64,000 nucleotides of DNA from Phenylobacterium sp. (lineage in GTDB: Bacteria; Pseudomonadota; Alphaproteobacteria; Caulobacterales; Caulobacteraceae), in assembly GCF_016124325.1 (NCBI RefSeq), contig NZ_WGNY01000007.1, forward strand, positions 1-64,000. The letters run 5' to 3'. The notes beneath the pieces were generated by a model. The model did not search any database. It was given only the letters and a program-made list of their open reading frames with translations, and was not told where the DNA came from. Positions within the stretch are counted from its first letter, which is position 1; each line of letters starts with the position of its first letter. Positions 12,287 through 28,700 of this stretch are shown one piece after another. A program made the translations under genes and the position numbers.

Positions 12287-12386
12287 CCCTTCCCCCTTGC
12301 GGGGAAGGGCCGGGGATGGGGGTGCGAAACCCCCTCTCCAGTTCCACACCCCCACCCCAACCCCTCCCCGCAAGGGGGAGGGGCGT
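12287..12386. repeat. Intergenic long inverted repeat (REP/BIME-like)
   Basis: CCTTCCCCCTTGCGGGGAAGGGCCGGGGATGGGGGTGCG faces CACACCCCCACCCCAACCCCTCCCCGCAAGGGGGAGGGG. Confidence 0.75.
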
Positions 12387-23006: not shown

Positions 23007-23792
23007 ATGTCCGATTTTCGCCGCAGGCGGCTCGCCGCCCTCGCCGCGAAGATCGCCGTCCTGGAGGCGGACGGGCGGGCGGATGCGGGCGTCCTGCCGT
23101 TCGGCGCGCCGTCGCTGGACGGCCGCCTCGCCGGCGGCGGGCTGCCGCTGGGGCGCTGGCACGAGATCACGGGCGAAGGGCTGGAGGCCGAGACGGGGGC
23201 CGCGCCGGCCGCCTTCGCGGCCCTGACGGCCACGCCCCTGGCCCGGCGTGGGGAGGCGGTCTGGGTGATGCGCCGCGACGACCTGTGGACGCCCGGGCTG
23301 ATGGGCCTGGGCTTCCCGCCGCAGCGGCTGATCCAGGTGTGCGCCCGCGACGAGGCCGAGGCGCTGGCGGTGATGGAGGACGCGCTCGCCACTGCGGGCG
23401 TCTCTGCGGTTATCGGCGAGGTCGAGGCCGTGGACCTGACCGCCGGACGCCGCCTGCAGCTGGCCTGCGAGAAGCACGGGGCCACGGGGTTCGTGATCAA
23501 GCGCCGTCCGTTCGGCGGAACGGGAAAGCTCGAGCCGGCCGGATCGACAGCCGCCACCCGCTGGCGCGTGGCCTCGGCGCCTTCCGAGCCGCCGGCGGGG
23601 GAGTTCGGCCTGGGCGCGCCGCGGCTTTCGGTGACGCTGGAACGCAGCCGGGGCGGTCGGCCCGGCGCATGGATCCTCGAGGCGGCCTCCGCCTATTCCT
23701 GGGAGACGGGCGATGCCGCGCATCCTCTGCGCCTGGTCGCCGAGCTGGGCGATCGCGAACTGGCGCCGGCGCAAGACCGCCGCGCGGCCTGA
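23007..23792 (+). CDS. imuA: ImuA, SulA/RecA-like mutasome component
   Basis: PFGAPSLDGRLAGGGLPLGRWHEITGEG; position in imuA-imuB-dnaE2 cassette behind LexA box. Confidence 0.92.
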   Translation: MSDFRRRRLAALAAKIAVLEADGRADAGVLPFGAPSLDGRLAGGGLPLGRWHEITGEGLEAETGAAPAAFAALTATPLARRGEAVWVMRRDDLWTPGLMGLGFPPQRLIQVCARDEAEALAVMEDALATAGVSAVIGEVEAVDLTAGRRLQLACEKHGATGFVIKRRPFGGTGKLEPAGSTAATRWRVASAPSEPPAGEFGLGAPRLSVTLERSRGGRPGAWILEAASAYSWETGDAAHPLRLVAELGDRELAPAQDRRAA

Positions 23793-25365
23793 GGCCCCCT
23801 CCACCGCGTTCCGCGGTCCCCCTCCCCCGCTGACGCGAGGGAGGAGCGAAGCGCCGGACTCCCGCTCCTCCCCCGCATCGGCGGGGGAGGTGTCGCCCCG
23901 CACAGGGGCGACGGAGGGGGCGGTCTCGCCCCTGGCCCTGGTCGAGACGGTCCGCCAGATCCGCCGGCTCGTGGCGGTCAGCCCCGAGGCCGCCCGGCTG
24001 GGCCTGTTCCCCGGCCAGAAGGCCACCGACGGCAGGGCCCTGGTGCCCGAGCTGGAGCTGGCCGACGCCGAGCCGGACGCCGACGCGGCGGCGCTGACCG
24101 CCCTCGTCGACTGGTGCGTGCGCTTCTCGCCCGCCGTGGCGGCCGATCCGCCGGACGGCCTGTTCCTCGACATCGAGGGCGCCGACCATCTCTGGGGCGG
24201 CGAGGCGGCGATGCTGGCCGACTTCCGCGCGCGCCTGGCCGCCAACGGCCTGGTCTTCCGCCTCGCCGTCGCCGACACGCCGGGCGCGGCCTGGGCCCTG
24301 GCCCGCTTCGGCCCCGACGGCGTCATCGCCCCGCCCGGCGGCCAGGCCGCGCTGCTGGCGCCCCTGCCCCCCGCCGCCCTGCGGCTCGATCCCGAAGCCG
24401 CCGCCCAGATCGAGCGCCTGGGCCTGCGCCGGCTGGGACAGGTGATGGACATCCCCCGCGCGCCGTTCGGCCGCCGGTTCGGGGCCGCGGCGCTCACCCG
24501 CCTCGACCAGGCCCTGGGCCGCGCGCCCGAGGCGCTCCGCTTCCGCCGCCCGCCGACGCCCTGGGCCGCGCGGCTGGCCCTCGTGGAGCCGATCAGCGCC
24601 CCCGACGACATGGCTCGGGTCGCCGGCGACGTGACCGCCAAGCTCTGCGCGCGGCTGGAGGCCGAGGATCACGGCGCGCGCCGCTTCGAGATCGCCTTCC
24701 ACCGCGTGGACGGCAAGTCGCCCACCCTCGCCGTCGGCCTGTCGCGGGCCGGCCGCGACGCCGGCCGCATCGCGCGGCTGTTCCAGCCCAAGCTGGAGAC
24801 CGTCGACCCCGGCTTCGGCGTCGAGGCCGTGTCGATCTGGGCCTATGAGGTCGAGGCCCTCGGCGCCCGCCAGAGCCGCCTCGACGCCGGCGTGGAGGCC
24901 CGTGACAGCCTGGCGCCCCTGGTCGATCGCCTCGCCAACCGCCTGGGGCCCGAACGCGTCTGGCGCGCGGCCCCGGTCGAGAGCCATGTGCCTGAACGGT
25001 CCGTATCCCGCCGGCCTCCGCTCGCCGACGAGATGGTGGAGGCCTTCCCCTGGGACCCCGAGGCGCCGCGGCCGGTGCGCCTGTTCCGCCGGCCCGAGCC
25101 GCTGGAGGACGTGACCGCGCTGCTGCCCGACGATCCGCCGATCCAGTTCCGCTGGCGCGGCCGGCTGCACCGCGTGCGCCGCGCCGAGGGGCCCGAGCGG
25201 ATCGGCGCGGAATGGTGGACCCAGGACATCGAGGACGTCTCGACGGGCCACGTCCGCGACTACTACCGCGTGGAGGACGCCGGCGGCGCCCGCTTCTGGC
25301 TGTTCCGCGCCGGCCTCTATGGCGAGGCGCCGCCGAAGTGGTGGCTGCACGGCCTGTTCGGGTGA
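23713..25365 (+). CDS. imuB: ImuB, catalytically inactive Y-family polymerase-like protein, with an in-frame repeat-encoded insertion
   Basis: LCAWSPSWAIANWRRRK...ALVETVRQIRRL...LFLDIEGADHLWGGEAAMLADF...QIERLGLRRLGQVMDI. Confidence 0.93.
   Translation: MPRILCAWSPSWAIANWRRRKTAARPEAPSTAFRGPPPPLTRGRSEAPDSRSSPASAGEVSPRTGATEGAVSPLALVETVRQIRRLVAVSPEAARLGLFPGQKATDGRALVPELELADAEPDADAAALTALVDWCVRFSPAVAADPPDGLFLDIEGADHLWGGEAAMLADFRARLAANGLVFRLAVADTPGAAWALARFGPDGVIAPPGGQAALLAPLPPAALRLDPEAAAQIERLGLRRLGQVMDIPRAPFGRRFGAAALTRLDQALGRAPEALRFRRPPTPWAARLALVEPISAPDDMARVAGDVTAKLCARLEAEDHGARRFEIAFHRVDGKSPTLAVGLSRAGRDAGRIARLFQPKLETVDPGFGVEAVSIWAYEVEALGARQSRLDAGVEARDSLAPLVDRLANRLGPERVWRAAPVESHVPERSVSRRPPLADEMVEAFPWDPEAPRPVRLFRRPEPLEDVTALLPDDPPIQFRWRGRLHRVRRAEGPERIGAEWWTQDIEDVSTGHVRDYYRVEDAGGARFWLFRAGLYGEAPPKWWLHGLFG
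23794..23921. repeat. Palindromic doublet repeat inserted in frame in imuB
   Basis: Starts GCCCCCTCC and ends GGAGGGGGC; sub-units 23794-23847 and 23864-23921 are inverted copies (GCTCCTCCCCCG..CGGGGGAGG). Confidence 0.85.
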
Positions 25366-25779: not shown

Positions 25780-28700
25780 CCCGCTACGCCGAGCTGCAGG
25801 CCACGACCAACTTCGCCTTCCTGCGCGGGGCCTCGCACCCGCACGAGCTGGTGGCGACGGCGGCGGCGCTGGGGATCGAGGCGATCGGGATCTGCGATCG
25901 CAACAGCCTGGCCGGGGTGGTGCGCGCCTGGTCCGAGATGCGTCGGCTGAACGAGGGCGGGCGCCCGATCCGCGCGCTCACCGGCTGCCGCCTCGACTTC
26001 GCCGACGGGACCCCCAGCCTGCTGGTCTATCCCTCCGACCGCGAGGCCTACGGCCGGCTCACCCGGCTGCTCACCGCCGGCCAGCTCCGCGCCGAGAAGG
26101 GCGCGTGCGAGCTGCATTGGGAGGACTTCCTGGCCCATGCCGAGGGCCAGCTCGCCCTGGTGGTTCCGCCCGAGCGGCTGGACGCGGCGTTCGAACACGA
26201 CCTGAAGCGGATCGTCGGCGACCTGCCCGACGCCTGGCTCGCGGCCTCGCGCGGCTATGGCGCGCGCGACCTGAAGCGGCTCTCGCATCTGGCCGCCCTG
26301 GCCGAGGCGGCCGGCGCGCCGATGGTCGCCACCGGCGACGTGCTCTACCACGGCCCCGAGCGGCGGCCCCTGCAGGACGTGCTGACCTGCATCCGCGAGG
26401 GCTGCACGATCCACGAGGCGGGCCTGCGGCTCGCCGCCAACGCCGAGCGGCACCTCAAGGGCCCCGACGAGATGGCCCGCCTGTTCGCCCGCTTTCCCGG
26501 AGCCGTGGAGCGCAGCGCCGAGATCGCCGGACGGATCGGCTTCGACCTCTCCCAGCTGCGCTACGAATATCCCGACGAGCCGGTGCCGCCGGGCAAGACC
26601 GCCATCCAGCACCTACGCGACCTGGCCTGGGCCGGCGCCGAGTGGCGCTATCCCGGCGGCGTCCCCGACAAGGTGAGGAAGCTGGTCCGGCACGAGCTGG
26701 ACCTGATCGAGAAGCTCGACTTCCCCAACTACTTCCTGACCGTCCACGACATCGTCCGCTGGGCGCGCGAGCAGGACATCCTCTGCCAGGGGCGCGGCTC
26801 GGCGGCCAATTCCTGCGTCTGCTTCTGCCTGGGGATCACCTCGGTCGACCCCACCAAGCCCGACCAGGACCTGCTGTTCTCGCGTTTCATCTCGGAGAAC
26901 CGGGGCGAGCCGCCCGATATCGACGTCGACTTCGAGCACGAGCGGCGCGAGGAGGTGATGCAGTACGTCTACCGCCGCTATGGCCGCCACCGCGCCGCCA
27001 TCGTGGCGACCGTCATCCACTACCGCCCGCGCATGGCGATCCGCCAGGTGGGCAAGGCGCTGGGCCTGACCGAGGACATCACCGCCGCCCTGGCCAACAC
27101 CGTCTGGGGCAGCTACGGCGACGGGGTCCCCGACGAGCATATCCGCCAGGCCGGGCTGGACCCCGACGCCCCCGAGATCCGCCGCGCCACGGCGCTGGCC
27201 CACCAGCTCCTGGGCTTCCCCCGCCACCTGTCGCAGCACGTGGGCGGCTATGTGCTGACCAAGCGGCGGCTGGACGAGACCGTGCCGATCGGCAACGCCG
27301 CGATGGAGGACCGCACCTTCATCGAATGGGACAAGGACGACATCGACGCCCTGTCGCTGATGAAGGTGGACGTGCTGGCGCTGGGCATGCTGACGGCGAT
27401 CCGCAAGGCGTTCGAGATGCTGCCGCCGCTGCCGGACGGCCGGCGCATCACCGACATCGCCCACATCCCGCAGGAGGACCCGGAGGTCTACGAGATGCTG
27501 TGCCACGCCGATTCTGTCGGCGTGTTCCAGGTGGAGAGCCGCGCGCAGATGTCGATGCTGCCAAGGCTGAAGCCCCGGAAGTTCTACGACCTGGTCATCG
27601 AGGTGGCGATCGTGCGGCCCGGGCCGATCCAGGGCGACATGGTCCACCCGTACCTCAAGCGCCGCGACGGGATCGAGCCGGTCTCCTTCCCCCGCCCGGC
27701 GCCCGAATACCCGCAGGACGAGATGGAATCGATCCTGGGGAAGACCATGGGGGTGCCGCTGTTCCAGGAGCAGGCCATGCGCGTGGCCATCGTCGGCGCC
27801 GAATTCTCCGACAACGACGCCGACGGCCTGCGCCGCTCGATGGCCACCTTCCGCAACATGGGCACGGTCGGCGAGTACGGCGTGAAGTTCGTCGAGGGCA
27901 TGATCCGGCGCGGCTACGATCGCGAATTCGCCGAGCGCTGCTTCAAGCAGATCGAGGGCTTCGGCTCGTACGGCTTCCCGGAGAGCCACGCGATCAGCTT
28001 CGCGCTGCTGGTCTACGCCTCGGCCTGGATCAAGCGCCACCACCCCGACGCCTTCTGCGCGGCGCTCCTCAACAGCCAGCCGATGGGCTTCTACCAGCCG
28101 GCCCAGCTGGTCCGCGACGCGCGCGAACACGGGGTGGAGGTGCGCCCGCCCGACGTCATGGCCAGCGACTGGGACTGCACGCTGGAGGAATGCTCCTCCC
28201 CCGAAGGGAACGCTTCGGGGGAGGGGGACCGCGAAGCGGTGGAGGGGGCGCAAGGCGATCTGCTTCCATCGGGCTCGATGCCCCCTCCGTCTCGTCGCGT
28301 GCCGCGCCGAGCCACCTCCCCCGTCGCCTCCGCGACGAGGGAGGAGCGAGCGCACCCTCTCCGCGCCGTCCGCCTGGGCCTGCGACAGGTGAAGGGGCTC
28401 AAGGAAGCCGACGGCGTGGCGCTGGCGAAGGCCCGCGAGGCCGGGGCGCGGACGGTGGAGGACTTCGCTCGTCGCAGCGGCGTGTCGCGCCGGGCGCTGG
28501 AGCTGCTGGCCGAGGCCGACGCCTTCCGCGGGATCGGGCTCGACCGCCGCGCGGCGCTGTGGGCGGTGAAGGGATTGGCCGGCGAATGGCGCGCCGAGCG
28601 CGACGCCCCGCTGCTGCTGCGCCAGAACCTCCAGGAGGTCCAGGTCGAGCTGCCGCTGATGAACCTGCCGCAGCATGTGGTGGAGGACTATCGCACCACC

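Follow-up and report, generated by a model that had tools for sequence, protein, structure and literature searches.

A dispersed palindromic repeat lies in frame within imuB of Phenylobacterium, at a site probably set by the stop codon of the overlapping imuA

In a 64,000-nucleotide stretch of Phenylobacterium DNA (the window), a 128-bp palindromic block lies within the open reading frame of imuB, directly behind the stop codon of the upstream, overlapping gene imuA. The explanation considered very likely, taken as a whole, is that an element copy behind the imuA stop falls in the overlapping imuB and is read there as a loop of the protein. A normally extragenic repeat would be read as ImuB because the imuA/imuB overlap puts the stop codon in the ImuB linker. 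The block itself is one copy of a palindromic element (REP/MITE-like) that is dispersed in Phenylobacterium and probably non-autonomous, and the position of the imuA stop in the overlap probably explains the insertion site. In-frame palindromes as such are already established, as the RPEs of Rickettsia and as intragenic REPs, including those in DnaE2; what is added here is the explanation of the site, its recurrent use and a second hot site in a damage-response helicase. No paper on such ImuB inserts, or on gene overlap as their cause, was found in the open-access papers searched. The features of the junction are the following.

23007-23792, + strand: imuA, matching the ImuA model NF033429 below its curated cut-off, with the stop codon TGA at 23790-23792.
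23713-25365, + strand: imuB, an intact open reading frame of 550 aa for a Y-family protein with an IMS domain (Pfam IMS above the cut-off; dN/dS).
23794-23921, + strand: palindromic element of two facing units (sequence, repeat search, fold, about 28 places in the genome).
23794-23802, + strand: left terminal inverted repeat GCCCCCTCC, one base past the imuA stop.
23803-23817, + strand: left side hairpin ACCGCGTTCCGCGGT (sequence, fold).
23821-23844, + strand: core hairpin of unit 1 (repeat search).
23867-23890, + strand: core hairpin of unit 2, an inverted copy of unit 1 (repeat search).
23892-23912, + strand: right side hairpin GTCGCCCC..GGGGCGAC (repeat search).
23913-23921, + strand: right terminal inverted repeat GGAGGGGGC (sequence, repeat search).

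The original prediction had described a palindromic repeat of two inverted units inserted in frame inside imuB, and this description holds: two units face each other within 23794-23921, and the block, which starts with GCCCCCTCC and ends with GGAGGGGGC, contains no stop codon in the imuB frame and corresponds to ImuB residues 28-70, about 43 aa. The terminal arms comprise 23794-23807 and 23908-23921, and a small side hairpin is present on either flank, outside the two facing core hairpins. Folded as single-stranded DNA, the block reaches -58.9 kcal/mol, compared with -34.5 +/- 3.2 for dinucleotide shuffles (z -7.75), and none of the 200 shuffles was as stable. An isolated small hairpin of similar type, CCTCCCCGCAAGGGGGAGG, occurs elsewhere in the window, at 12363-12381.

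The overlap between imuA (in frame +2) and imuB is 80 nt in the window and has a similar length in most orthologs. For comparison, 100 genomes of the genus were sampled and yielded 80 imuB regions, most of them with dnaE2, or 81 sequences with the window included; the imuA stop codon falls within the ImuB linker codons in all 81. Most of these proteins have 9-15 residues joining IANWRRR to FAL(I/L)ETVR, and insert-less orthologs typically have 7-31 nt between the imuA stop and the conserved FAL motif. The ImuB segments flanking the block had been expected to be nearly contiguous, and rightly so, since orthologs without the insert run from ...IANWRRRNPSDSPA straight into PFAL(I/L)ETVR; the ortholog alignment that had been proposed thus shows most ImuB proteins of the genus with a short linker and no insert, rather than with an equivalent segment of non-repeat DNA. 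What the first reading overlooked is the imuA-stop site, together with the recurrent hits by different repeats and the in-frame copies in dnaE2 and a helicase. A single base separates the imuA TGA from the start of the block, and most palindromic inserts among the orthologs begin 0-15 nt past the corresponding stop. This rule is strong, not absolute, because a clade of eight and L075 deviate from it. In the clade (L116, L121, L128-L130, L133, L134 and L138), the expansion precedes a displaced imuA stop and is read in both the imuA and the imuB frames, because the imuA overlap is longer there; in L075, compared with its empty sister L086, the insert stands upstream of the ancestral stop and a new stop now precedes it. 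Very large distances from the imuA stop to FAL in L115, L118 and L126 were dismissed as motif-search errors, the linkers there being short.

An expanded linker (at least 43 nt from the imuA stop to FAL) is found in 17 of the 81 sequences, and ten of the 17 expansions are strongly palindromic, with fold z values from -2.8 to -11; the insert of L100 also matches a half-unit by sequence. Across the ImuB alignment, linker inserts are concentrated at this single site, and inserts of at least 10 aa occur at only two others, in L099 and in the relatives L142/L143, whose insert resembles the window element. The inserts of L071, L072, L073, L074 and L114 belong to several repeat families and are each multi-copy in their own genomes; therefore, insertion at the ImuB site has recurred. 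On a maximum-likelihood tree, the insert state must have changed 14 times or more, and well-supported branches force at least ten of these changes; the label mapped on the tree also covers the clade of eight and the expansions that are not palindromic. Three close pairs differ in insert state (L075/L086, L112/L117 and L132/L131). An assembly artefact was rejected, as independent genomes bear inserts at the ImuB site. The L073 insert (G013) represents an inverted-repeat family of its own, about 156 bp long and dissimilar to the window element; this family is multi-copy in several relatives, with many copies in G070.

Counting copies, as the original prediction had suggested, shows that the block is not single-copy: searched against its own genome (4.9 Mb, 58 contigs), it gave 40 matches at about 28 places, intergenic as well as within genes, and a half-unit search added further, weaker units. 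Twelve of the 14 scorable intergenic copies, defined by callable neighbours and with copies at contig ends left out, have a called stop codon no more than 20 nt away, a zone that takes up 8% of intergenic bases (binomial p 2.6e-8, either end of a copy being allowed). The underlying gene census drew on a home-made codon-usage gene caller, on search hits and on a sample of 845 kb. The 9-mer ends, counted by themselves, did not exceed chance; information comes only from complete elements. Among 50 loci in four relatives, 28 have a stop codon no more than 20 nt away, and for most of the rest the distance is at most about 50 nt; the nearness of copies to stops agrees with the published position of REPs (PMC3733652). 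Because the copies hug stops, the place behind imuA is an ordinary one for the repeat, and it is the overlap that makes it protein. Very similar copies of a longer element variant stand at contig ends in L008, L009, L012 and L015, which suggests a repeated locus that breaks the assembly.

The post-stop position and the strong folding (z -7.75) are typical of REPs, which have been proposed as mRNA actors (PMC3733652), and a hairpin behind imuA might protect the upstream message, cause partial termination of transcription or couple the translation of imuA and imuB, the peptide being a by-product. Such an RNA role is judged unlikely, considering that most relatives lack the element and that the unrelated repeats at the ImuB site are alike only in being palindromic. 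Under the preferred explanation, in which the overlap makes protein of a post-stop repeat, transposition would be the source of the block, and elements would settle or survive mainly directly behind stop codons. The imuA stop lies among the codons of the ImuB linker that leads from the predicted first helix to the second strand, so that a repeat behind it lands inside imuB; the repeat would be kept only if its length and frame left imuB open and, once kept, would be read as a 43-aa, Pro/Ser/Gly-rich loop.

A second in-frame insert is present in dnaE2, which belongs to one operon with imuB. In Caulobacter crescentus (vibrioides), DnaE2 depends on ImuB for its function (PMC8102061).

25776-29129, + strand: dnaE2, error-prone polymerase of 1117 aa, carrying the second in-frame insert (NF004225, 1421.9 bits).
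28192-28249, + strand: dnaE2 unit of the window element family, core hairpin first and terminal repeat last (genome match L029, sequence, half-unit search).
28280-28347, + strand: second dnaE2 unit, in the opposite orientation (sequence).

The two dnaE2 units stand back to back, whereas those in imuB face each other, and the insert amounts to 45 aa after residue about 810; among the other 73 DnaE2 sequences aligned, only L099 has one, a short insert. Further in-frame copies in the same genome were found in a ligase-associated DNA damage response DEXH helicase (TIGR04121, L024:1501-1620), in an asparagine synthase between its glutaminase and synthase domains (L011/L014; L011:1501-1653) and, as a linker element, in a lipoyl-bearing E2-type protein recognized by eye (L020:432-497 and L023:1501-1565). 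Palindromic in-frame inserts of differing sequence recur between the two helicase domains of this protein in at least 8 of the 30 loci examined in the genus, and the asparagine synthase of G051 (L270) has an insert at the matching place. The helicase observation concerns L024, L238, L267 and L306-L317. L020 and L023 are two nearly identical contig ends and represent either a duplicated gene or overlapping ends of contigs.

The inserts in dnaE2, the helicase, the asparagine synthase and the E2-type protein do not stand at stop codons, and thus a tolerant linker alone can host the element. These permissive mid-gene inserts speak for a reading in which the ImuB site is hot merely through a tolerant loop, the imuA stop being a bystander and elements inserting anywhere but surviving in permissive loops. 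This reading is a real possibility, although clearly not the favoured one: nearly all palindromic ImuB inserts come after the imuA stop, even though the linker spans both sides of it, and at its other places in the genome the element stays close to stop codons.

ImuB is intact and under purifying selection, with dN/dS outside the linker of 0.30-0.35 for this genome versus its relatives and 0.09-0.24 among the others. A structure model of ImuB (seven sequences, mean pLDDT 46.6) consists of a strand at residues 3-8, a helix at 10-23, a coil at 24-75 and a strand at 76-80; it was used for the order of these elements alone, as weak support, and its quality is too low to establish that the loop lies at the surface. 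The 43-aa loop, rich in Pro, Ser and Gly, is apparently translated as part of ImuB and would be situated at the protein surface, with a near-neutral effect on ImuB. The repeat would instead be extragenic if the true ImuB start were downstream of the block, and indeed the insert lies near the N terminus, a class for which Di Nocera and colleagues warned of misannotated starts (PMC3733652), while the conservation of the upstream segment is not independent evidence because this segment also encodes imuA. Nevertheless, a downstream start appears extremely improbable: the segment before the insert, RILCAWSP.WAIANWRRR, is conserved no less well in the imuB frame than in the imuA frame (cross-genus mean identity 0.62 vs 0.56) and is predicted by the low-confidence model to form the strand-helix pair that opens the fold.

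A loop that alters mutasome activity and is selected for it, in line with the speculation of Di Nocera and colleagues on repair-gene REPs, might be considered in view of the three DNA-damage genes (imuB, dnaE2 and the ligase-associated helicase) that carry in-frame copies in one genome, the recurrence of inserts in relatives and the published finding that intragenic REPs favour repair genes, DnaE2 among them (PMC3733652). Selection of this kind would nonetheless be very improbable, given that the sequence, length and family of the repeat vary among species, that many relatives have no insert and that dN/dS of imuB in this genome is not strikingly different.

Comparison with known repeats places the element close to several classes. 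RPE and WPE palindromes are about 100-150 bp long and multi-copy and occur both between genes and in frame within conserved genes, which in Wolbachia include recombination and repair genes (PMC2229807, PMC4224334). The block had been likened to RPEs, and by behaviour alone the likeness stands: its size (128 bp), its copy number, its presence both between and within genes and the existence of insert-less orthologs all agree with that class, the block being a multi-copy palindrome that most orthologs lack and that, placed in frame, is apparently translated. Unlike RPEs and WPEs, the window element is GC-rich and belongs to another host order, and one ImuB loop is struck again and again, where the overlapping upstream gene has its stop codon. 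The Caulobacter CerM-associated intergenic repeats CIR1-4, found in Caulobacter and related alphaproteobacteria, are about 110 bp long and have two hairpins (reviewed in PMC2229807); they carry GANTC sites and stops in all frames and have been reported as intergenic only (PMC2229807). The window element is likewise built of two hairpin units, but a CIR was rejected, because 23794-23921, when read through, showed no GANTC motif and is open in the imuB frame.

The GTAG and CGTC REPs are short palindromes, often facing dimers, that mostly adjoin ORF 3' ends (Di Nocera and colleagues 2013, PMC3733652). Intragenic REPs were found in frame in replication and repair genes, including DnaE2, and an effect on mutability was speculated (Di Nocera and colleagues, PMC3733652); the main text of that paper mentions neither ImuB nor Caulobacter nor Phenylobacterium. 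A CGTC REP has a stem of 8-9 bp opening with AT pairs, a loop of 4-5 and a CCA tail (PMC3733652). The window element resembles intragenic REPs in its facing palindromes, its nearness to ORF 3' ends and its in-frame presence in DnaE2; a CGTC REP was rejected because the core stems of the block, CCTCCCCCGC/GCGGGGGAGG, are 10 bp long and have no AT opening. REPINs are facing REP pairs mobilised by RAYT, and the window element is similar to them in that its two hairpin units face each other across a variable middle part, but it has no GTAG tag and its genome has no Y1 transposase. A search for the RAYT-type Y1 transposase (PF01797) gave no match in this genome, whereas the controls, including Caulobacter vibrioides, were positive, and mobilisation by RAYT was rejected on this ground, as was, with the block lacking GTAG, a GTAG REP or REPIN with RAYT. 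The parental transposase was sought as PF01797 only, and no mobilising enzyme was found. Terminal inverted repeats, a feature of MITEs, are present in the block (GCCCCCTCC / GGAGGGGGC). Comparisons with empty sites revealed no clear target-site duplication; the L071 insert is flanked by a CGGCCTRRCGCC-like direct repeat, possibly by chance.

The placement of a repeat by an overlapping stop codon offers a concrete route from extragenic repeat to protein, in which the overlap sets a favoured post-stop site inside the next gene. The orthologs provide a natural replicate series, in which a single loop of a DNA-damage mutagenesis factor has received different repeats independently about ten times or more, and the 2013 idea that repeats in repair genes alter mutability becomes directly testable in harmless free-living bacteria. 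More generally, overlapping junctions might be gateways that make protein of post-stop repeats, with imuA/imuB a standing port for activity-tuning loops, although this broader idea is a long shot.

Expanded linkers are also found in other genera. In a second genus of the family, g21, which is probably Caulobacter, 13 of the 18 readable sequences have an expanded linker directly behind the stop of the imuA frame, and ten of these linkers have a fold z of -3 or lower. ImuB-linker inserts are mostly missing in g20, and L219 of g14 carries a different palindrome at the imuA-stop spot.
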